A program made the translations under genes and the position numbers. DNA of 64,000 bases from contig NZ_JAKWJU010000002.1 in assembly GCF_022524345.1 (NCBI RefSeq), positions 4,378,501-4,442,500 of the forward strand, written 5' to 3'. Below the pieces are notes generated by a model. It had not been told where the DNA came from. It worked only from the letters and a program-made list of their open reading frames with translations, and searched no databases. Each line of letters starts with the position of its first letter. Position 1 is the stretch's first letter. This document shows, piece after piece, positions 2,315 through 13,756 of this stretch. The DNA comes from Streptomyces marispadix (GTDB lineage Bacteria; Actinomycetota; Actinomycetes; Streptomycetales; Streptomycetaceae).

Positions 2315-3967
2315 TCACTTGCCGGTACCGCCCCCCGCGCCGCCGCCCTTGAACGGCGTGCGGCGGACCGCGCGGCCCGCGAGTACGTCCGTGCGGCTCC
2401 CGTCGTCGATGACGAAGCGGCCGTCGATCAGTACAAAGGGGATGCCGACGGGCAGTACACGCGGCTGCTCGTAGGTGGCGCCCGCTGCGACCGTCGACGG
2501 GTCGAAGAGCACGAGGTCCGCCCGGTAGCCCTCCCGTACCAGGCCGCGGTCCGGGAGCCGCAGCCGGGACGCGGGGCGCGAGGTGAGACGGGCGACGCAC
2601 TCCTGGAGGGAGAGGACGCCCGACTCCCTTACGTAGTGGCCCAGATAGCGCGGGAAGGTGCCGTAGGCGCGAGGGTGCGGCTTGCCGCCCTGGAGGATGC
2701 CGTCGCTGCCTCCGGTGTGGGCGGGGTGGCGCATCATGTGCCGCACGTTCTCTTCGTGGCCCACGTGCTGGAGGATCGTCGTGCCCAGCCTGTCCTCGAT
2801 CAGCAGCCGGCGGGCGGTGACGAAGGGCTCCTCGCCCCTCTCGGCGGCCGACCGCGCGACCGTGGCTCCCACGTAGCCGGACAGCGCCGGTTCGGAGACG
2901 CCGGAGATCTCGATCGTCTCCCAGTCGATGGGCACGCCGTGGCAGCCGTCCGAGCCCTCGGCCTCCATCACATGCCGGATGCGCCGGCAGGTCTCATCGT
3001 GCGACAGCCGCGCCAGGATCGCCTCAGGGCCGCCCGCGCTCGCCCAGCTCGGCAGCATCGCCACCAGGGTCGTGCAGCCCGGGGTGTACGGGTAGGTGTC
3101 GAAGGTGATGTCCGAGCCGCCCGCGAGCGCACGGTCGAGGAGGGCCGTCAGCTCGGGGGCACGGCCCTTGTTGACGCCGAAGTTCATGGTGGCGTGGGCG
3201 AGATGGAGCGCGCAGCCCGCCTCGTGCGCGAGCGTGATCATCTCCTCGTACGCCTCCAGGGCGCCCTTGCCGTAGGAGCGGTGGTGCGGGCAGTAGTAGC
3301 CGCCGTATGAGGCCACCGTGCGGCACAGCTCGGTGAGTTCGGCGTCGGAGGCGTACATGCCGGGCGCGTAGGTCAGCCCGGACGACATGCCGACCGCGCC
3401 CTGCTCCAGGCCCTCGGCGACCAGGCGGTGCATCTCGCTCATCTCCAAGGGAGTCGCGGGCCGGTCGTCCCAGCCGACGGCCAGCATGCGGACGCTGCCC
3501 TGCGGTACGAGATACGCCACGTTGACGGCGGTGCCCTGACGGTCGACGCGGTCCAGATAGCCGCCGACGGTGCGCCAGTCGAAGTCGACGGAGGAGTCGC
3601 CGGGTGCGCTGCCGTTCCAGCCGGTGATGGCGCTGCGTACCTCGGCGAGGGTGCGGTCGTCGACGGGCGCGTAGGACAGGCCGTCCTGGCCCACGACTTC
3701 GAGGGTGACGCCCTGTGCGGCCTTGGCCGAGTGGTCCGGGTCCCGCAGCAGGGCCAGGTCGGAGTGGGCGTGCATGTCGATGAAGCCGGGGGCGAGGGCG
3801 AGGCCCGTCGCGTCGAGCACGCGGCGGGCGCCGAACGGGCGGCTCCCGCCCGCGGACTCGGGGACGACGGCAGTGATGCGGCCGCCGTCGACGGCGACGT
3901 CCGCGCGGTACGGGGCGGTCGCACCGGAGCCGTCGACGACGTCCGCGTTGCGGATGAGGAGATCCAT
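2315..3967 (-). CDS. D-aminoacylase-family amidohydrolase (N-acyl-D-amino acid or N-acetyl-D-glucosaminate deacetylase)
   Basis: A 550-residue zinc amidohydrolase of the N-acyl-D-amino-acid deacylase family, which removes the acyl group from an amino group on a D-configured carbon. The metal motif HAHSD is at residues 66-70, followed by HHRSYGKGALEAYEE, HLAHATMNFG and DTYPYTPGCTTL, all characteristic of the family. It begins with MDLLIRNADVVDGSG; the C terminus has the usual ADLVLFDP block. The start lies 43 bp after the stop of the DSD1-like gene, so the two are probably one operon. The neighbouring KDG-type kinase and GntP permease make N-acetyl-D-glucosaminate a plausible substrate; classic D-aminoacylase activity is the alternative. 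Family is secure, substrate is inferred. Confidence 0.88.
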   Translation of the reverse strand: MDLLIRNADVVDGSGATAPYRADVAVDGGRITAVVPESAGGSRPFGARRVLDATGLALAPGFIDMHAHSDLALLRDPDHSAKAAQGVTLEVVGQDGLSYAPVDDRTLAEVRSAITGWNGSAPGDSSVDFDWRTVGGYLDRVDRQGTAVNVAYLVPQGSVRMLAVGWDDRPATPLEMSEMHRLVAEGLEQGAVGMSSGLTYAPGMYASDAELTELCRTVASYGGYYCPHHRSYGKGALEAYEEMITLAHEAGCALHLAHATMNFGVNKGRAPELTALLDRALAGGSDITFDTYPYTPGCTTLVAMLPSWASAGGPEAILARLSHDETCRRIRHVMEAEGSDGCHGVPIDWETIEISGVSEPALSGYVGATVARSAAERGEEPFVTARRLLIEDRLGTTILQHVGHEENVRHMMRHPAHTGGSDGILQGGKPHPRAYGTFPRYLGHYVRESGVLSLQECVARLTSRPASRLRLPDRGLVREGYRADLVLFDPSTVAAGATYEQPRVLPVGIPFVLIDGRFVIDDGSRTDVLAGRAVRRTPFKGGGAGGGTGK

Positions 3968-4010
3968 CGGGGCGTCCCTTCGGCTCAGTTCGCGGTCGGG
4001 CCGCGGTGCG

Positions 4011-5288
4011 TCAGAAGAACGTGCGGATATAGCCGGTGACCGTGCCGTCCGCCGTCGTCTCGGGGATGAGCTGCCACTTGTCGAAGATCGTGCAGGGGTG
4101 GGAGAGGCCGAGGCCGACCCACTCGCCGACCTCGACCGGTGCGCCCGCCTCGGTACGTACCCATGCGTGCTGGTCGGAGAGGGCGGTGACCGTGACGCCG
4201 TCCGCGGGGCGCGTCGAGCCGTCGGTGGAGCGGATCGTGTGCGGCTGCGGCAGATGGAGGTCGAAGGCCGCGTCGCGCTTGCCCGCGTTGAGGAACGCCT
4301 GGTCCGGCGCGGGACGTGAGACGACCTGCGCCCAGAGCGTGAACGCCGCCTGGAGAGCGCCCTCTTCGGGCACGCGGTTGAACGGCGTCTTCTCGCGGTA
4401 GGCGCCGTCGTCGTGCGACACGTAGGCACCGGAACGCAGCAGCTTCAGCAACGGACGGGACAGCGGCGGGAGTTCGGCGAAGACCTCGGCGACGGCGTCG
4501 AACCAGGCGCTGCCGCCCGCGCTGACCACGATCTCGGTGAGCCCGGCGAAGCGGCCCCCGGCGTCGAACTCTGCGGCGAGGACCGTCAGCCGGCGCAGCC
4601 ATGCCGCGACCGACTCCGGGGTGGCGCCGGGGACTTCGCCCTCGTAGCCGGCGACTCCCACCAGCCGGAGGGTGGGCGCCGCGGCCACCGCGTCGGCGAC
4701 CGCCTCGCATTCGGCCTCCGTACGGGCTCCGGTACGGGCGCCCTCACCGGCGGCGAGTTCGACCACGACGTCGACGGGGCGCACGGCGCCCGACTCGGCG
4801 AGCGCGGCGTCCATCTGGGCCACGCCCTCGGTGGAGTCCACGTAGCAGACGAAGCCGAAGTCCGGGTCGGTGCCCAGCTCCTGGGCGATCCAGTGCAGCG
4901 CGGCGGGGTCGACCAGCTCGTTGGCGAGGAAGATCCGCGGAATCCCGAACGCCCTCGCCACACGCACCTGATGGGGCACGGCCAGCGTGATCCCCCAGGC
5001 GCCGTGGGCGAGTTGGCGGTGGAAGAGCTGAGGGGCCATGGACGTCTTGCCGTGCGGGGCGAAGGCGAGGCCGTGGCGCTCGGTGTACGTCTCCATCAGC
5101 GCGAGGTTGTGCTGGAGCCGCTCGGCGGAGAGGGCGAGCACCGGTGTGGTGAAGCCGCCGGTGAACAGGTTGCGGTGCTCGGCGGTGAGCGCGGCCACGG
5201 TGGTGCCCGCGGCGTCCGGGGGCAGCCCCTTGAAGCGGTGGTCCACATGCTCCGAGGCGAGTGGGGCGAGGGGGTCCGCGGCGGCCAT
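4011..5288 (-). CDS. Alanine-racemase-fold PLP enzyme (D-serine dehydratase / D-threonine aldolase-like deaminase)
   Basis: A 425-residue fold-III PLP enzyme of the DSD1/D-threonine aldolase group. The Schiff-base lysine is probably Lys81 in FAPHGKTSM. The C-terminal SHPCTIFDKW (His397, Cys399) is the pair that binds zinc in DSD1-type D-serine dehydratases. These enzymes remove ammonia from beta-hydroxy D-amino acids; relatives act on D-glucosaminate to give 2-keto-3-deoxygluconate. The ATG at 5288 is preceded by GGAG at good spacing. It is the first gene of a leftward unit with the deacylase and diverges from the kinase/IclR/RidA/permease genes. A nearby RidA, which hydrolyses enamine/imine intermediates of PLP dehydratases, supports a deaminase rather than an aldolase role. 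Confidence 0.85.
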   Translation of the reverse strand: MAAADPLAPLASEHVDHRFKGLPPDAAGTTVAALTAEHRNLFTGGFTTPVLALSAERLQHNLALMETYTERHGLAFAPHGKTSMAPQLFHRQLAHGAWGITLAVPHQVRVARAFGIPRIFLANELVDPAALHWIAQELGTDPDFGFVCYVDSTEGVAQMDAALAESGAVRPVDVVVELAAGEGARTGARTEAECEAVADAVAAAPTLRLVGVAGYEGEVPGATPESVAAWLRRLTVLAAEFDAGGRFAGLTEIVVSAGGSAWFDAVAEVFAELPPLSRPLLKLLRSGAYVSHDDGAYREKTPFNRVPEEGALQAAFTLWAQVVSRPAPDQAFLNAGKRDAAFDLHLPQPHTIRSTDGSTRPADGVTVTALSDQHAWVRTEAGAPVEVGEWVGLGLSHPCTIFDKWQLIPETTADGTVTGYIRTFF

Positions 5289-5424
5289 GGGGACTCCTGC
5301 TCCGTGAGTAGGGGCGGCTGGGTGCGTAGGGCGGCTGGGACGGGGCGACGAGTGTGCGGGGCGGCCCGTGCCCGGGTGATGCGGTTCGGCGGTCCTGCGT
5401 GCTAGTGAGTTGCCGCCCAGTGCC

Positions 5425-5441
5425 GTTGCAGTGACTGCAAC
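5425..5441. promoter_or_regulatory. Perfect 17-bp palindrome, candidate IclR operator
   Basis: GTTGCAG-TGA-CTGCAAC: two perfect seven-base arms around a three-base centre, in the 231-bp gap between the divergent catabolic units. It abuts the rightward -35 hexamer at 5447. A TGCATTGC half-site-like sequence follows. The IclR gene of the cluster is the obvious candidate binder (inference). Confidence 0.65.
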
Positions 5442-5446
5442 CTGCA

Positions 5447-5476
5447 TTGCGTATTTCGCTCAGAGCTGTCTAGCAT
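5447..5476 (+). promoter_or_regulatory. Putative promoter of the kinase-iclR unit
   Basis: TTGCGT at 5447-5452, an 18-bp spacer and TAGCAT at 5471-5476, with the perfect palindrome just upstream. The start codon is at 5520, leaving a leader of about 35 bases that includes AGGGAG. Confidence 0.5.
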
Positions 5477-5519
5477 CCCGCCGAACACCCGTCAATCGAC
5501 AAGGGAGCGGATACGAACG

Positions 5520-6728
5520 GTGCGGACAGTGGAGAGGCCGGAGGTCGTCTGCCTCGGCGAATCGATGGTCACGTTCCTGCCCTCGCGGGCGGGACGGCTC
5601 GCGGACGTACCGTCCTTCGAGCGGGCCATCGGCGGCGCCGAGTCCAACGTGGCCTGCGCGCTTGCCGGTTCGGGGCACTCCGTGCGCTGGATCAGCCGCG
5701 TAGGGGCGGACGGCTTCGGCGACCATCTGCTGGAGACGATCGCGGCGCGCGGAGTCGACGTCGGGACCGTCGGGCGTGATCCGCGGCGCCCGACCGGGAT
5801 CTACTTCCGTACGGACGGAGAGCGGCCGACCGGGCTCGACCCGCTCGGCGCCCCGGGCGGGAACTCCGGCCGGGGCTCGGACCGGGACTCGGACCGGACT
5901 TCGGACGGCGGCCCGGACGGGCGCTCGGCGACGGGCGGTGGCACCGCCGAAGTCGTCTACTACCGTGCGGGATCGGCCGCTTCGGCCATGTCACCGCGGA
6001 CCGTGGACCTCGCGGCCGTGGACGACGCCGACGTGCTGCATCTCACCGGCATCACCGCCGCGCTGTCACCGGGGTGCCTGGAGCTGATGCGGGTGCTCAC
6101 GGGAGCGCGTGCGCACCGGCCGCTCGTCTCCTTCGACGTCAACTACCGGGTGGGGCTCTGGGATCGGGGCCCGGACGGACCAGCCGCCCCCGGCGCGGGG
6201 CCCGGACCCGGAGTGCTGCTCGAACTCGCCCGCGGCTGCGACCTCGTGTTCGTGGGCGAGGACGAGGCGGAGGCCGCCTGGGGCGTCACGGGCGGTCCGT
6301 ATGCGATCAGGGAGCGGCTGCCCGAGCCGGGCGTGCTCGTCGTCAAGCAGGGCGCTACGGGGGCGACCGCCTTCGTACGGGGCGACGACGGAGGCAGCGG
6401 GGCGAGAGGCGACATGGCGGATCACGACGGGACCGGCGGCGACGGCGTCCACTCGGTCCCCGCGCTGCACATCGACGTGGCCGGTGCCGTGGGCGCGGGC
6501 GACGGCTTCGCCGCCGGGTTCATCTCGGCGACGCTGCGCGGACTGTCCGTACGGGAGCGGCTGCGTCACGGACACCTCATGGCCGCCGCGGCCCTGACCG
6601 TACCGGGGGATCTCGCGGAGCCGCCGGAGCGCGAGGTCGCCGACCGGCTGGCGGCGCTGGACGACGAGGCGTGGGGGACCCTGCGCCTCGGCCCCGGGTG
6701 GAACACACAGAAGGCGAACGTCAGATGA
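5520..6728 (+). CDS. PfkB-family sugar kinase, 2-keto-3-deoxygluconate kinase type
   Basis: A 402-residue ribokinase-family enzyme that phosphorylates a sugar or sugar acid with ATP. The N-terminal GGAESNVACALAGSG block and the C-terminal AGAVGAGDGFAAGF block with its catalytic Asp (about residue 329) are both intact. CLGESMVTFLP and the order of blocks are most like KDG kinases. Residues 101-142 form a Gly/Ser/Asp/Arg-rich low-complexity insertion not usual in the family. GTG at 5520 is used as start (GTG at 5529 is also possible). It overlaps the iclR start by ATGA, so the two are translationally coupled. With the upstream deaminase, KDG is the substrate that best explains the neighbourhood; this is inference. 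Confidence 0.85.
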   Translation: MRTVERPEVVCLGESMVTFLPSRAGRLADVPSFERAIGGAESNVACALAGSGHSVRWISRVGADGFGDHLLETIAARGVDVGTVGRDPRRPTGIYFRTDGERPTGLDPLGAPGGNSGRGSDRDSDRTSDGGPDGRSATGGGTAEVVYYRAGSAASAMSPRTVDLAAVDDADVLHLTGITAALSPGCLELMRVLTGARAHRPLVSFDVNYRVGLWDRGPDGPAAPGAGPGPGVLLELARGCDLVFVGEDEAEAAWGVTGGPYAIRERLPEPGVLVVKQGATGATAFVRGDDGGSGARGDMADHDGTGGDGVHSVPALHIDVAGAVGAGDGFAAGFISATLRGLSVRERLRHGHLMAAAALTVPGDLAEPPEREVADRLAALDDEAWGTLRLGPGWNTQKANVR

Positions 6729-7501
6729 GCCAGACCGTCGACCGCGCACTGAGCATCCTTCCCCTGCTCGCCGAGGGACCGGCGAACCTCGAGCAGGTCG
6801 CGAACAGGCTCGGCGTGCACAAGTCCACCGCGCTGCGCCTGCTGCGTACGCTCCACGAGCACGGCATCGTGCACCGCCAGCCCGACCACAGATACCGGCT
6901 CGGCGCGCGGCTCTTCGCCCTCGCACAGCAGGCCGTGGAGAACCTGGACGTGCGCGAGACGGCCCACCCCCACCTCGTCGAACTGAACGAGCGGACGGGG
7001 CACACGGTCCATCTCGCCGTGCACGAGGAGGACGAGGTCCTCTACATCGACAAGGTCGAGAGCCGCTACCCGGTGCGGATGTACTCGCGCATCGGCAAGC
7101 CCGTCGCGATCACGGTCGCCGCGGTCGCCAAGCTGCTGCTGGCCGATCTGCCCGAGCAGGAGCGGCGGTCGCTCGCGGAACGTCTCGACTACCCCCGCTA
7201 CACGGCCCGTTCGATCACCGACGCCACGGCCTTCCTCGCCGAGCTGGCGAAGGTGCGCGAACAGGGCTGGGCCACCGACCTCGGCGGCCATGAGGAGTCC
7301 ATCAACTGCGTCGCCGCCCCGGTGCGCGGGCCGGACGGGCGGGCCGTGGCCGCGATGTCCGTCTCGGCGCCCAACGTCGTCGTCAGCGCCGACGAACTCC
7401 TCACCCTCCTCCCGCTGGTGCGTCGTACGGCCGAGGCCATCAGCGACGAGTACTCCGGGAGGACCCCGGAGAGCCGCGAGCGCCCCCAGAGCAGCCCGTA
7501 G
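6725..7501 (+). CDS. IclR-family transcriptional regulator
   Basis: A 258-residue regulator. The N-terminal winged helix-turn-helix (about residues 1-60: VDRALSILPLLAEG ... LGVHKSTALRLLRTLHEHG) is followed by the IclR effector domain (about 75-245) with YPVRMYSRIGKPVAIT and VAAPVRGPDGRAVAAMSV. KDG-sensing KdgR proteins belong to this family, which fits the kinase next door. The ATG overlaps the kinase stop. The perfect palindrome at 5425-5441 upstream of the kinase is the likely operator, giving control of both divergent units. The target and ligand are inferred. Confidence 0.93.
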   Translation: MSQTVDRALSILPLLAEGPANLEQVANRLGVHKSTALRLLRTLHEHGIVHRQPDHRYRLGARLFALAQQAVENLDVRETAHPHLVELNERTGHTVHLAVHEEDEVLYIDKVESRYPVRMYSRIGKPVAITVAAVAKLLLADLPEQERRSLAERLDYPRYTARSITDATAFLAELAKVREQGWATDLGGHEESINCVAAPVRGPDGRAVAAMSVSAPNVVVSADELLTLLPLVRRTAEAISDEYSGRTPESRERPQSSP

Positions 7502-7545
7502 ATCAGCCCCCTGGAGACCCAAGAGCCCCCGGAGACGCGGCAGTC

Positions 7546-7563
7546 GGGACCCCTCAGGGTCCC
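7546..7563 (+). terminator. Short hairpin between iclR and ridA
   Basis: GGGACCC-CTCA-GGGTCCC forms a perfect seven-pair stem with a four-base loop. No T run follows, so it may attenuate, protect or separate the iclR and ridA parts of the transcript rather than fully terminate. Confidence 0.4.
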
Positions 7564-7621
7564 GGAAAGCCCCTCAAGACCCGAACGAGACCTTGAACAC
7601 CCCGGAGAAGGAACGGCATCC

Positions 7622-8047
7622 ATGAGCGACGAGCACGGCGGAAACCCGGCCAAGACGGCCGTCACCCCGCCCACGCACACCACACCGCCCGCGAAGTTCT
7701 CGCACGGCGTGCGCAAGGGCAACATCCTCCAGGTCGCCGGGCAGGTCGGGTTCGCGCCCGCGGCACCCGGCCAGGCGCCCGCCCCGGTGGGGCCGGGGCT
7801 GCGTGAGCAGACGCTGCGCACCCTCGCCAACGTCGAAGCCGTCCTCCGGGAGGGCGGGGCGAGTTGGGAGGACGCGGTGATGATCCGCGTCTATCTCACC
7901 GACACGGCCCACTTCGCCGAGTTCAACCAGATCTACGACGAGTTCTTCGCGGACCTCACCGAGGCGCCCGCAGCCCGTACGACCGTCTACGTGGGGCTGC
8001 CCGCCGGGCTGCTCGTAGAGATCGACGCGCTCGCCGTGCTCGGCTGA
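7622..8047 (+). CDS. RidA family imine/enamine deaminase
   Basis: A 141-residue YjgF/YER057c/UK114 protein. These cytosolic trimers hydrolyse reactive enamine/imine products of PLP dehydratases, such as 2-aminoacrylate. The conserved core VRKGNILQVAGQVGF, the ...MIRVYLTD block and the C-terminal ARTTVYVGLPAGLLVEIDALA with the substrate-binding Arg are present. The N terminus has about 20 extra Pro/Thr-rich residues. The ATG at 7622 follows GGAGAAGGA. Its place in a cluster with a DSD1-like PLP deaminase suggests it handles that enzyme's intermediate. Confidence 0.92.
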   Translation: MSDEHGGNPAKTAVTPPTHTTPPAKFSHGVRKGNILQVAGQVGFAPAAPGQAPAPVGPGLREQTLRTLANVEAVLREGGASWEDAVMIRVYLTDTAHFAEFNQIYDEFFADLTEAPAARTTVYVGLPAGLLVEIDALAVLG

Positions 8048-8050
8048 GGC

Positions 8051-8100
8051 GCCCGCAGGCGCACTGAGCCCGCAGGCGCACTGAGCCCGCAGGCGCACTG
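8051..8100 (+). repeat. Three 17-bp tandem repeats between ridA and the permease
   Basis: The unit GCCCGCAGGCGCACTGA repeats at 8051, 8068 and 8085 (the last copy lacks one base). The array starts four bases after the ridA stop, in the 169-bp gap before the permease. Function unknown. Confidence 0.9.
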
Positions 8101-8216
8101 CCTGCCCCGCCGGCGTACCGGCATTGCCGGGAACGCCGCCACCTCCCCAACCCCCTCCGCATGTCCCAACCCCCCGCAGAACACGAGCCGTTGACACAGA
8201 AACCCCGAGGCCCACC

Positions 8217-9686
8217 ATGCTGCTGCTCGCATCCGCGCCCGAGAAGGCGCCACCCCACACCGGCGGTCTGCTCGCCCTCATAGGCGGCACCCCAGGTCTG
8301 CTGACCGTCGCCGCCCTGGGAATCCTGCTGCTGCTCTTCCTCATCATCAGGGTCCGGCTGCAGCCCTTCGTGGCGCTGCTGGGCGTCTCCATAGCCGTCG
8401 GCCTTGCCGCCGGGCTGTCGGTGACCGAACTCTTCGGCACCGTGCAGAAGTCCGACGCCGTCTCCCTCATCGAGGACGGCATGGGCGGCATCCTCGGCCA
8501 TGTCGCCATCATCATCGGCCTCGGCACCATGCTCGGGTCGATACTCGAGGTCAGCGGTGGAGCCGAGGCCCTCTCCAGCAGGCTGCTGGCCCTGTTCGGC
8601 GAGCGGCGCGCGCCGCTGGCCATGGGCCTGACCGGCCTGATATTCGGCATCCCGGTCTTCTTCGACGTCGGGATCTTCGTGCTCGCACCGATCGTCTACG
8701 CCGCCGCAAAGCGCTCCGGCAAGTCGATCGTCCTCTACTCGATGCCGCTGCTCGCCGGGCTCTCCATGACGCATGCGTTCCTGCCGCCGCACCCGGGACC
8801 GGTGGCGGCCGCGGGCTTGCTGAAGGTCGACCTCGGCTGGATCATCCTGATGGGCGTCGTCACCGGCATCCCCGCCGTGCTGGCGGCCTGGGCGTACGCG
8901 GCGTGGATCGGCAACCGGCTCTTCGTCGAGGTGCCGCACGACATGGTCGAGGCGGCGGAGGAGGCCAAGGCGGCCGTCGCGGCGGAGCAGAAGGCGGCGG
9001 GCGTCTCCACGGAACGCCCCGTCTCGCTGGCCGTGGTGCTCGGCATCATCGGCACGCCGCTGCTGCTGATCCTCCTGGCGACGTTCTCGTCCATCGCGCT
9101 GGACCCCTCGACGCTCCGTTCCGTAGTGGAGTTCTTCGGGCATCCCTTCGTGGCGCTGACGATCGCGCTGCTGCTGGCGTACTGGCAACTCGGCCTGAAG
9201 CGCGGCTGGTCGCGCCAGTCGCTGGAGACCGTCTCCACCGCCTCGCTGAAGCCGATCGGCAACATCCTGCTGGTCGTCGGCGCGGGCGGGGTCTTCGGTG
9301 CGGTGCTCGACGGCAGCGGCGTGGCGCAGGCGCTGGCCGACACCTTCGGCGACGCGGGCCTGCCCGTCATTGTGCTGTCGTATCTGCTGTCGCTGGTGCT
9401 GCGCGTCGCGCAGGGCTCGGCGACGGTGGCGATCGTGACCACCGCCGGGATCGTCGCTCCGCTTCTCTCCTCGGGCGACTACTCGCAGGCGCACACCGCG
9501 CTGGTCATCATGGCGATCTCCGCGGGCTCCATCTTCGCCTCGCACGTCAACGACGGCGGTTTCTGGATCGTCTCGAAGTACTTCGGCATCTCGGAGCGGG
9601 ACACCCTGAAGTCCTGGACGGTGCTGGAGTCCGTGCTGTCGGTGGCGGGCTTCGCCGTGGCCGCGGCGGTGAGCCCCTTCGTCTAG
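8217..9686 (+). CDS. GntP-family permease (gluconate/aldonate or D-serine type)
   Basis: A 489-residue membrane transporter with 12-14 hydrophobic segments. GntP family blocks are clear: LFLIIRVRLQPFVALL, EDGMGGILGHVAIIIGLGTMLGSILEVSGGAE, FGIPVFFDVGIFVLAPIVYA, THAFLPPHPGPVAAA, LRVAQGSATVAIVTTAG and SHVNDGGFWIVSKYFG. The family carries gluconate and other aldonates by proton symport; one branch (DsdX) carries D-serine. In this cluster it most likely imports the acid processed by the deacylase, deaminase and kinase. ATG at 8217 is chosen as the first in-frame ATG before the hydrophobic region; no strong ribosome site is seen, so the start is less certain than the family. Confidence 0.92.
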   Translation: MLLLASAPEKAPPHTGGLLALIGGTPGLLTVAALGILLLLFLIIRVRLQPFVALLGVSIAVGLAAGLSVTELFGTVQKSDAVSLIEDGMGGILGHVAIIIGLGTMLGSILEVSGGAEALSSRLLALFGERRAPLAMGLTGLIFGIPVFFDVGIFVLAPIVYAAAKRSGKSIVLYSMPLLAGLSMTHAFLPPHPGPVAAAGLLKVDLGWIILMGVVTGIPAVLAAWAYAAWIGNRLFVEVPHDMVEAAEEAKAAVAAEQKAAGVSTERPVSLAVVLGIIGTPLLLILLATFSSIALDPSTLRSVVEFFGHPFVALTIALLLAYWQLGLKRGWSRQSLETVSTASLKPIGNILLVVGAGGVFGAVLDGSGVAQALADTFGDAGLPVIVLSYLLSLVLRVAQGSATVAIVTTAGIVAPLLSSGDYSQAHTALVIMAISAGSIFASHVNDGGFWIVSKYFGISERDTLKSWTVLESVLSVAGFAVAAAVSPFV

Positions 9687-11105: not shown

Positions 11106-12167
11106 CTACGGCAGCTTGTGGACGTGCGGGCCGACCTTGCCCGACCAGGCGTTGCCGTTCGAGGCGTCCCAGTTGGTCGACCAGGTCATCGCGCCGCGGA
11201 TGCCGGGGTACTTCTTCTCCGGCTTGAAGCTTCCGCACTTCTCGCCCTTGGCCAGGCAGTCCAGGGCGTCGGTCACCACGCCGGGCTCGACGTAGCCGGA
11301 GCCCGCGGCGCTCGACGAGGCGGGGGTGCCGATGCCGACCTGCGAGGGGTCGAGGCCGCCTTCGAGCTGTACGCATGCGAGGCCGGTGAGGAAGTCGACG
11401 CTGCCCTGTGCGTAGGTCTTGCCGTCGCAGCCGTTCATCGAACCGCTGTTGTAGTACTGCATGTTGACGACGGTCAGATAGTCCTTGATGTTGAGCGCGG
11501 TCTTGAAGTACTCCTTCTCCGGCGACTGCATGTCGATGGTCTGCGGCGCCATCGTGACCACGACGTCCTTCTTCTTCGCGTGGATCGCGTCGAGCGCCTT
11601 GGTCATGTACGTCGAGTTGAGGCCGTTCTCCAGGTCGATGTCGACTCCGTCGAAGCCGTACTCGTCCATGAGCGATGTGATGCTCTTGGCGAACGCGTCG
11701 GCCGAGGCGTCGTCGGAGACGCTGACCGCGCCCTTCTCGCCGCCGACCGAGACGATGACCGATCTGCCCGCGTCGTGCAGGGACTTGATGTCGGCCTTGA
11801 AGTCGTCCTCGGAGCTGTAGCCCGTCGCGGGGTCCAGCTTGAAGTCGACCTCGCCCGCGGTGCCCGTGGCGTCGGCGAAGGCGACGGCGACGATGTCGTA
11901 GTCCTTGGGCACGTCGGAGAGCTTCTGGGTCTTCGCGCCGTTGTCGAAGTTCTGCCAGTAGCCGGTCACGGCGTGTGCGGGGACCTCCGAGGCGCCCACG
12001 GCCGGGCTGCTCGCCTTCTTGGCGGTGGCCGCACCGCCGTCGCCGGCGGGACCCGCGCTCGCGGTGCCGACCGTGACCATGCCGCCGACCGCGAGTGCCG
12101 CCACCGTGACCGCGGCGAGTACGCGCGGGCGCTTGAACGAGCTGGAAGGGAATGTTGCGCGTGCCAC
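11106..12167 (-). CDS. Secreted GH18 chitinase
   Basis: A 353-residue exported glycoside hydrolase family 18 enzyme that cleaves chitin beta-1,4 bonds with substrate-assisted catalysis. The signal peptide (FKRPRVLAAVTVAALAVGG ... TASA) ends near residue 38. The substrate motif SVGG is at 140-143 and the catalytic DGVDIDLE (DxxDxDxE, Glu180) at 173-180. MAPQTIDMQ, VVNMQYYNSG and GAMTWSTNWD are typical of the small, single-domain Streptomyces chitinases; no carbohydrate-binding module is attached. The GTG at 12167 follows GGAGG. Its promoter holds a DasR-type site. The gene product may supply substrates for the aldonate cluster at 2-10 kb (inference). Confidence 0.95.
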   Translation of the reverse strand: MARATFPSSSFKRPRVLAAVTVAALAVGGMVTVGTASAGPAGDGGAATAKKASSPAVGASEVPAHAVTGYWQNFDNGAKTQKLSDVPKDYDIVAVAFADATGTAGEVDFKLDPATGYSSEDDFKADIKSLHDAGRSVIVSVGGEKGAVSVSDDASADAFAKSITSLMDEYGFDGVDIDLENGLNSTYMTKALDAIHAKKKDVVVTMAPQTIDMQSPEKEYFKTALNIKDYLTVVNMQYYNSGSMNGCDGKTYAQGSVDFLTGLACVQLEGGLDPSQVGIGTPASSSAAGSGYVEPGVVTDALDCLAKGEKCGSFKPEKKYPGIRGAMTWSTNWDASNGNAWSGKVGPHVHKLP

Positions 12168-12242
12168 AACTGCCTCCGTGGTGGGGGGAGATGGGGAGGA
12201 AAGGTGCTCGGTGTGGTGCGCGGGGCCCTGCGCTTCGCTGAC

Positions 12243-12271
12243 AAGATGGTCCAGACCAATCGGGTTGTCAA
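12243..12271 (-). promoter_or_regulatory. Chitinase promoter with an embedded DasR-type operator (dre)
   Basis: Read on the minus strand, TTGACA (12271-12266) and CATCTT (12248-12243) are separated by 17 bp. Within this, TGGTCCAGACCA at 12247-12258 (palindromic TGGTC...GACCA) matches the dre/chitinase box bound by the GntR-family repressor DasR, which is released by glucosamine-6-phosphate. The box lies between and overlaps the hexamers, a classic repression position. Confidence 0.85.
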
Positions 12272-12373
12272 GGGCTTTGACGCCCGCCGGTGCCCTTGTA
12301 TTGATCGTCCGTCGGGGATTGGATGCGCCCCGGCAGGACCTCTTTGCGGGGACGAGCACGAAGGCGGTCTGAG

Positions 12374-13756
12374 ATGGCAACCGAGGACAGCAGGCAGAGC
12401 GGGGAATCCGCCTCCACACCGAGCGGCCCGGCAGACCCGGAGGGTCCGTCGGCTCCGCCCGTACGCAAGGCCAGTTGGAAGCTTGTCGGTCCGGGCATCG
12501 TCGTCGCCGCGACGGGCGTCGGCGCCGGCGACCTGGTGGCCACGCTCATCGCAGGCAGCAAGTACGGCTACACCCTGCTGTGGGCCGCCGTGATCGGCTG
12601 CATCGTCAAGATCGCGCTCGCCGAGGCGACCGGCCGCTGGCATCTGGCCACAGGGCGCACGATCTTCGACGGCTGGCGTTCGCTCGGGCCGTGGACCACC
12701 GTCTACTTCGCCGTCTACGTCGTGGTGTGGGGCTTCGTCTACGGCGGCACCGCCATGTCCTCCTCGGGGCTGCCCCTGGAGGCGCTCTTCCCCGGCGTGC
12801 TCGACCTCAAGGGCTGGGCGATCATCACCGGGCTGATCGGCCTCGTCTTCGTCTGGTTCAACCGGTACGCCGTCTTCGAGAAGGTCATGACGGTGCTGAT
12901 CGGCATCATGTTCGTGGTCGTGGTGTACGTCGCGATCCGGGTATCGCCGGACATCGGCGCGAGCTTCGCGGGACTGGCGCCCGTGCTGCCGGACGGCTCG
13001 CTCTTCTACACCCTCGGGCTGATCGGCGGCGTAGGCGGCACCATCACCATGGCCGCGTACGGGTACTGGGTGAACGCCAAGGGCTGGACGGACAGCAGCT
13101 GGATGAAGATGATGCGGCTCGACAACCGCGTCGCGTACATCACCACCGGCATCTTCGTCGTGGCGATGCTGATCGTCGGGGCGGAGCTGCTGCACTCCAC
13201 CAACATCGCCATCGCCGAGGGCGACAAGGGCCTCGCCGACCTCGACAAGGTGCTCGAGGACCGCTTCGGCGGCTTCACCTCCACGCTCTTCCTCATCGGC
13301 TTCTTCGCCACGTCGTTCACGTCGCTGATCGGCGTATGGCAGGGCGTGAGCCTGATGTTCGCCGACTTCGTCGAGCGGCTGCGTGCCGCCCGTGACGCGG
13401 GGAGCGAGGGCCCGAAGGAGAGCGAGGGCGCGAAGGAGGGCGAGGACGACCCGGTGCGCGCCGTCGCCGCCGGTCAGCGCGAGACCTCGCTGCCCTTCCG
13501 CGCGTATCTGCTGTGGCTGACGTTCCCGCCGATGACGCTGCTGTGGCTGGACCAGCCCTTCGCGCTCGTCGTGGCTTACGGCGTGCTCGGCGCGTTCTTC
13601 ATGCCCTTCCTGGCGCTCACGCTGATGTGGCTGCTCAACTCCAGCCGTACGCCGAAACAATGGCGCAATGGAATCGTGAGCAATGTGATGCTCTTCGTCT
13701 CCGGGATGCTCTTCATCGTGCTTTGTGTGCAGCAGGTGAAGGAGATTCCCTGGTAG
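12374..13756 (+). CDS. NRAMP-like (SLC11-related) divalent metal transporter
   Basis: A 460-residue membrane protein with about 11 hydrophobic segments of the NRAMP fold. Canonical manganese/iron NRAMPs carry DPGN in segment 1; here the equivalent reads GPGIVVAATGVGAGD, and the segment 6 MPH-type motif is not evident, so substrate cannot be assumed. A charged, Glu/Gly-rich cytoplasmic loop (about residues 335-365) is an insertion. The N terminus is a 30-residue Ser/Pro-rich tail. The ATG at 12374 follows GAAGG at long spacing. It diverges from the chitinase, so the two share about 200 bp of control region. Confidence 0.82.
   Translation: MATEDSRQSGESASTPSGPADPEGPSAPPVRKASWKLVGPGIVVAATGVGAGDLVATLIAGSKYGYTLLWAAVIGCIVKIALAEATGRWHLATGRTIFDGWRSLGPWTTVYFAVYVVVWGFVYGGTAMSSSGLPLEALFPGVLDLKGWAIITGLIGLVFVWFNRYAVFEKVMTVLIGIMFVVVVYVAIRVSPDIGASFAGLAPVLPDGSLFYTLGLIGGVGGTITMAAYGYWVNAKGWTDSSWMKMMRLDNRVAYITTGIFVVAMLIVGAELLHSTNIAIAEGDKGLADLDKVLEDRFGGFTSTLFLIGFFATSFTSLIGVWQGVSLMFADFVERLRAARDAGSEGPKESEGAKEGEDDPVRAVAAGQRETSLPFRAYLLWLTFPPMTLLWLDQPFALVVAYGVLGAFFMPFLALTLMWLLNSSRTPKQWRNGIVSNVMLFVSGMLFIVLCVQQVKEIPW

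Follow-up and report, generated by a model that had tools for sequence, protein, structure and literature searches.

A putative catabolic unit for N-acetyl-D-glucosaminate, the oxidised end of chitin fragments, in Streptomyces marispadix

Streptomycetes are major degraders of chitin in soil. The window analysed here, a stretch of 64,000 nucleotides from the 6.7-Mb genome of Streptomyces marispadix (contig NZ_JAKWJU010000002.1, positions 4,378,501 to 4,442,500), holds a divergent cluster of six genes for a deacylase of D-aminoacylase fold, a DSD1-like pyridoxal-phosphate (PLP) enzyme, a PfkB kinase, an IclR-family regulator, a RidA-family protein and a GntP-family permease. Judging from sequence and genomic context, we consider it highly likely that these genes form an actinomycete unit for the catabolism of N-acetyl-D-glucosaminate (GlcNAc1A), which C1 oxidation leaves at the end of chitin fragments. 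A preliminary description of the same DNA had put forward the route from N-acetylglucosaminate through glucosaminate and 2-keto-3-deoxygluconate (KDG) to 2-keto-3-deoxy-6-phosphogluconate (KDPG). This route is supported by the fusion of the deacylase to a family 20 glycoside hydrolase (GH20), adjacent KDPG aldolases and a kinase-aldolase fusion in relatives, as well as by extensions of the cluster with lactonase, ATP-binding cassette (ABC) and GH20 genes and by a motif common to the cluster and a distant ABC/GH20 operon.

We infer every reaction, together with the inducer and the transport substrates, from these data. The GntP permease would import the GlcNAc1A monomer, while a separate ABC transporter, whose operon carries the operator-like motif of the cluster, would import the oxidised beta-linked disaccharide, to be split by a GH20 enzyme in which, by our own reading, a signal peptide is not evident. 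The deacylase would then take acetate off N-acetyl-D-glucosaminate, the DSD1-like enzyme, with the help of RidA, would deaminate D-glucosaminate to KDG, and the PfkB kinase would convert KDG to KDPG. The genome has two KDPG-aldolase-family (PF01081) genes, both unlinked to the cluster, and one of them may cleave KDPG to pyruvate and glyceraldehyde-3-phosphate. Both operons would be controlled by the IclR protein via TTGCR-N5-YGCAA.

Gene fusions and neighbourhoods in relatives

The fusions, the neighbourhoods and the distribution of the motif, like the gene content of the window, were observed directly. A database search for the fusion of the deacylase with a GH20 beta-N-acetylhexosaminidase gave 290 proteins, and both domains are present in all of the 120 listed; the named ones among these are from Microbacterium, except for one metagenome-assembled genome named only as Actinomycetota. 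At locus L046, the protein of which stands in databases as Microbacterium sp. M28, a single open reading frame carries an Amidohydro_3 domain (60-526) and two GH20 domains (559-1004), with the deaminase gene directly upstream and RidA beyond that; downstream of the fusion lie genes for a ROK regulator, a ROK kinase and a NagB-like protein. Locus L163 has the same gene order, and both fusions were confirmed by Pfam. In the deacylase tree, the Microbacterium fusion nests within the window-type clade. A kinase-KDPG-aldolase fusion was found in a single case (L042), at a locus that also holds IclR and RidA together with a deaminase and a more distantly related deacylase.

Neighbourhoods were compared between 80 named loci, which are the best 80 of 538 and thus biased to relatives of the query and not independent, and 17 control stretches of 20 kb; gene presence in the loci was scored by tblastn (E<=1e-6), and some loci end at contig edges. 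The deaminase was found in 78 loci, RidA in 73, IclR in 70, the kinase in 65 and GntP in 49. The core of deacylase, deaminase, kinase, IclR and RidA recurs in all eight other same-genus loci, six of which hold GntP as well. The controls yielded one IclR match (34%), one ROK and one GH20, and not a single match to the deacylase, the deaminase, the kinase, RidA, the aldolase or GntP. Because the core is present in 8/8 same-genus loci and nearly absent from the controls, its grouping is not a matter of chance. Within the class, the deacylase has a match in 126 of 394 genomes at E<=1e-60, and at E<=1e-135 in 39 of the 40 same-genus genomes and 35 others (hand count).

A homologue of KDPG aldolase lies directly 3' of the deacylase in 28 of the 80 loci (0/17 controls), in Rhodococcus, Nocardia, Kitasatospora, Kribbella, Arthrobacter and others, two of these aldolases having been checked by Pfam. 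Furthermore, lactonases occur in 12 loci, sugar ABC binding proteins in 9 and GH20 in 10, compared with 0, 0 and 1 of the 17 controls. About 0.7 GH20-bearing loci per 80 would be expected from 34 places in 60 genomes, an estimate that covers GH20-bearing genomes only and uses Pfam there and tblastn for the loci; of the ten loci with GH20, four belong to Amycolatopsis and are not independent. At the Actinokineospora locus L082, genes for a 7-bladed-propeller lactonase, GH20, a GntR-UTRA regulator and an ABC binding protein come after the deacylase; at L075 (Amycolatopsis) and L074 (Saccharopolyspora) the genes that come after it are GntP, lactonase, ABC genes and GH20. The lactonase suits the pathway because C1 oxidation yields the lactone first.

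The same chemistry might act on another 2-acetamido-aldonic acid, such as N-acetyl-galactosaminate, and lead to the galacto isomers of KDG and KDPG. GH20 enzymes can also cut GalNAc and PF01081 includes aldolases for the galacto isomer of KDPG, and the top NCBIfam model of the kinase, scoring below its cut-off, is a bifunctional kinase for KDG and its galacto isomer. On the other hand, GlcNAc and chitin are indicated by the NagB-like and ROK genes beside the fusion and by the family 10 auxiliary activity (AA10) genes that the genome carries, and the best solved match of the kinase is a KDG kinase, so that we regard a galacto substrate as very improbable.

Several loci show other arrangements. 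A deacylase 46% identical to that of the window lies near a GH89 alpha-N-acetylglucosaminidase (L158). Three genomes of 1.3-1.5 Mb (L153, L155 and L157, family f92) have a divergent deacylase (44-48%), the deaminase and RidA with no kinase in range and no AA10 match in the genome, and the substrate may differ. In L166 and L167, kinase and IclR accompany deacylase homologues (42-43%; that of L166 is of GQDG type), with no deaminase in range. Deaminase and kinase homologues stand with a ROK-type regulator in L040 and L043, the former also having genes for a sugar ABC binding protein and for an enzyme of family GH4, and no deacylase match in the stretch, and L038 and L039 (family f3) have a deaminase homologue (45-47%) with no other cluster genes within 20 kb.

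An operator-like motif and a distant ABC/GH20 operon

The intergenic region between the two arms of the cluster contains the palindrome GTTGCAGTGACTGCAAC. Among 90 loci, 75 have both genes found and a gap of less than 700 bp, and all 75 of these divergent regions, in the window and its relatives, contain TTGC-N(5-9)-GCAA, where shuffling predicts 0.9; 33 of them contain the stricter form TTGCA/TGCAA. In the window genome the strict form GTTGCANNNNNTGCAAC has a single site, and the relaxed form GTTGCRNNNNNYGCAAC has two, the cluster palindrome and one more. Since, by our own estimate, one or two relaxed sites are to be expected from base composition, their number is uninformative, and it is their placement that informs; reversed-pattern controls gave 0-3 sites per genome in 41 genomes, among the matches listed.

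The second relaxed site ends about 25 bp 5' of the probable GTG start (our own reading) of a solute-binding protein gene, which heads an operon with a permease and a GH20 enzyme outside the window (L178). This binding protein is 46% identical to the one within the Amycolatopsis cluster. Its gene is present in 25 of 41 same-genus genomes, and in 24 of these 25 the exact 15-bp motif lies upstream, at most 260 bp from where the alignment begins, against an expected 0.02 genomes; in the remaining one (L247) it overlaps the aligned start of the gene. No site of this motif was found in 340 kb of controls. The transporter operons were fetched whole from 15 of the 25 genomes, as well as from the window genome: each fetched 15-kb stretch has exactly one motif, at the binding-protein gene, and GH20 is present in 12 of the 15. 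The shared motif therefore ties the cluster to the import and cleavage of an N-acetylhexosamine oligosaccharide. GH20 is linked to the unit through a second operon with the same motif, outside the window, and through fusion and neighbours in relatives. From their place and conservation, both palindromes are probably bound by the IclR protein.

Gene assignments, deacylase residues and the source of the substrate

All six open reading frames of the preliminary description were verified at their places (Table 1), and domain searches agree with the families assigned. By family, the window unites a deacetylase, a PLP deaminase, a KDG kinase, RidA, a transporter and a regulator.

Table 1. Features of the cluster and its surroundings, with positions in the window
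Feature	Position	Strand	Remarks
Amidohydro_3 deacylase, D-aminoacylase fold	2315-3967	-	GQDG metal motif; proposed N-acetyl-D-glucosaminate deacetylase
DSD1-like fold-type III PLP enzyme (D-ser_dehydrat/Ala_racemase_N)	4011-5288	-	PF14031; 3gwq, E 9e-78; proposed D-glucosaminate deaminase
Operator-like palindrome GTTGCAGTGACTGCAAC	5425-5441	.	divergent intergenic region; proposed IclR site
PfkB kinase	5520-6728	+	1v19 best solved match; proposed KDG kinase
IclR-family regulator	6725-7501	+	PF01614, PF09339
RidA-family enamine/imine deaminase	7622-8047	+	PF01042
Tandem repeat	8048-8110		between RidA and GntP; about three copies of an 18-base unit (GCCCGCAGGCGCACTGAG-like)
GntP-family permease	8124-9686	+	TIGR00791 above cut-off, PF02447; proposed free-sugar-acid importer
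ChiA-type GH18 chitinase	11106-12419	-	3ebv, E 5e-131
DasR-like site TGGTCCAGACCA	12247-12258		5' end of the chitinase gene

The deaminase scores 68.7 bits against PF14031 (cut-off 22) and has the motifs PHGKT and SHPC, which we take to be the PLP-lysine and the C-terminal metal motifs. The kinase (PF00294) has as its best solved relative 1v19, a 2-keto-3-deoxygluconate kinase (E 5e-33), and is of KDG-kinase type by the motifs YYRAGSAAS, DVNYRVGLW and GAGDGF aligned to it; it stays below the cut-off of the NCBIfam equivalog NF040938 (146.9 bits vs 400). The regulator gene starts at ATG 6725, in an ATGA overlap with the kinase stop, and the nearest NCBIfam models of its product are KdgR and BhcR, both under cut-off. 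The permease reaches 375 bits for TIGR00791 (curated cut-off 293) and may start at ATG 8217 instead of TTG 8124.

OngB, the deacetylase of the known ong pathway, has a Cys97/His222/His252 metal site, a catalytic Asp368 and the specificity residues Ser292 and Gln298 (PMC12017989; PDB 9kb1/9kb3). In an alignment with this enzyme of Pseudoalteromonas prydzensis, the window deacylase has Asp95 at the position of Cys97 and retains His228, His258 and Asp422; Lys254 is replaced by Thr, Ala256 by Asn and Ser292 by Thr299, and the position of Gln298 is gapped, with no aligned Gln. The GQDG motif is conserved in 80/80 relatives of the window deacylase. The D-aminoacylases AfDam, BbDam and that of Klebsiella (1m7j, 3gip, 9g5m) form another clade and have the Cys metal ligand that the window enzyme lacks, so that the Cys/His/His site of subtype V amidohydrolases seen in AfDam and BbDam is not found in it either. 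An Azospirillum D-aminoacylase example adjoins a D-amino acid dehydrogenase, not a kinase as in the window. In Streptomyces viridochromogenes, the deacylase frame extends to 1109 codons (L098, 10004-13330), which may reflect a fusion or an error in the sequence.

Several points weigh against a GlcNAc1A unit. The window deacylase is without the tested specificity residues of OngB and has Thr where D-aminoacylases have Thr. Partners are missing from part of the material: the kinase was not found in 15 of the 80 loci, the aldolase in 52, GH20 in 70 and the deaminase in 2, 3/15 fetched transporter operons are without GH20, and 16/41 same-genus genomes are without the transporter gene. The 80 loci yielded no AA10 gene, and outside the genus an AA10 match is missing from 15 of the 35 genomes that carry a deacylase orthologue. 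Finally, a study of 2009 reportedly assayed Sco4986 and classed it as a D-aminoacylase of hydrophobic D-amino acids, with substrate libraries that are said to have been without sugar acids. Sco4986 is probably the orthologue of the window deacylase, because chiA is SCO5003 and a ChiA-type chitinase gene lies close to the cluster. Promiscuity of the enzyme or a wrong pathway inference could account for this report, and therefore our confidence in a GlcNAc1A unit, while high, stops short of certainty.

An alternative is scavenging of N-acyl-D-amino acids, in which D-serine or D-threonine would be released by the deacylase and dehydrated to 2-oxo acids by the DSD1-like enzyme, RidA would dispose of the enamine and the kinase would be a bystander. 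The family names and folds of the deacylase and deaminase would suit it, as would two D-aminoacylase-like features, Thr299 and a hydrophobic residue close to the place of Gln298, and the reported assay of Sco4986 on N-acetyl-D-Phe and N-acetyl-D-Trp. That OngC itself also takes D-Ser and D-Thr (PMC9537276) would suit it as well. Yet D-Phe and D-Trp have no beta-hydroxyl for DSD1-type elimination, as established chemistry requires. The preliminary description had argued that plain D-serine catabolism does not explain the kinase; we agree, and the adjacent aldolase, the GH20 fusion, the lactonase and the motif common to the GH20 operon are likewise left unexplained by an amino-acid route, to which we give very little credence.

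The preliminary description had also derived the substrate from lytic polysaccharide monooxygenases (LPMOs), for which the evidence is circumstantial. The window genome has three AA10 genes, and AA10 was found in 40/40 same-genus genomes examined. With these 40 genomes set aside, and with matches at E<=1e-135 counted by hand, AA10 is present in 20/35 carriers of a deacylase orthologue and in 59/319 others (Fisher p 2e-6, kinship not corrected). It is possible, and in our view somewhat doubtful, that GlcNAc1A catabolism is correctly assigned and its substrate is mainly a product of other oxidases or scavenged from neighbouring organisms, which would be compatible with a GlcNAc1A unit: the AA10 association and the ubiquity of AA10 in the genus speak against such a source, whereas the AA10 absences given above would fit it, as would the window genome having no relaxed GTTGCRNNNNNYGCAAC sites beyond the cluster and the ABC/GH20 operon. 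The chitinase near the cluster, likewise cited in support, is indeed a ChiA-type enzyme, but it lends weak evidence, with GH18 in 4/80 named loci and 5/8 same-genus loci and with a DasR-like site of its own; chiA of S. coelicolor, SCO5003, is listed with a similar DasR-like site (PMC4398421).

Comparison with known systems

If the reading of the locus as a GlcNAc1A unit is true, it adds an actinomycete route for oxidised chitin ends for which the regulator, the operator and the importer are predicted, provides enzymology with a new family of deacetylases and with a fusion of hexosaminidase and deacetylase, and calls for the correction of widespread D-amino-acid annotations. We think it probable that the oxidative catabolism of chitin has at least two origins: Actinomycetota would have recruited their own D-aminoacylase-fold enzyme, with Asp at the Cys position, and their own DSD1-like deaminase for GlcNAc1A, and placed them under an IclR operator together with an ABC importer, GH20 and lactonase, Microbacterium would have fused hexosaminidase and deacetylase, and many streptomycete "D-aminoacylases" and "D-serine deaminases" would be misnamed. 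Within the literature searched, no paper on the use of oxidised chitin ends by actinomycetes was found, and the words "Actinobacteria" and "Streptomyces" are absent from the main texts of PMC9537276 and PMC12017989.

The sequence comparison with OngB and OngC proposed earlier spoke against orthology; the genomic context spoke for the same chemistry. In a quick tree of 61 rows with midpoint root, drawn from 112 collected deacylases, the window deacylase nests among Streptomyces and Nocardiopsis sequences, and it and OngB fall in separate starred groups; in the deaminase tree (49 of 102 collected) the window enzyme and the OngC side are in separate clades too. Identities between the window and ong proteins are about 25-37%: against P. 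shioyasakiensis, 32 and 37% for the deacylase (two pieces), 31% for the deaminase and 30.0% for RidA, with no match between the window kinase and its KdgK. Judged by these comparisons, the window enzymes are not orthologues of OngB and OngC, and the cluster is not ong by descent. The published screen, with strain ACAM 620 as its reference, took at least 4 genes with >30% identity to that strain, and the ong cluster was found in Gammaproteobacteria and one Achromobacter (PMC9537276).

According to the same source, GlcNAc1A is the substrate of the deacetylase OngB, OngC forms KDG by deamination of glucosaminate, KdgK is the kinase that phosphorylates KDG, and growth requires the RidA protein OngD (PMC9537276). 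The ong cluster of Pseudoalteromonas prydzensis and the window share a D-aminoacylase-fold deacetylase, a fold-type III PLP deaminase, a PfkB KDG kinase and RidA, and both systems have GH20, a transporter and a dedicated regulator. They differ in regulation and transport, by MurR/RpiR and an SSS transporter in ong and IclR with GntP/ABC here, and unlike in ong, the GH20 and ABC genes of the window genome stand in a separate operon. A predicted route of haloarchaeal chitin degraders (PMC12343721) likewise leads from glucosaminate to KDPG, with IclR and RutC (RidA) genes near chitinases; in contrast to the order proposed for the window, phosphorylation is predicted there to precede deamination, through a homologue of glucosaminate-6-phosphate ammonia-lyase.

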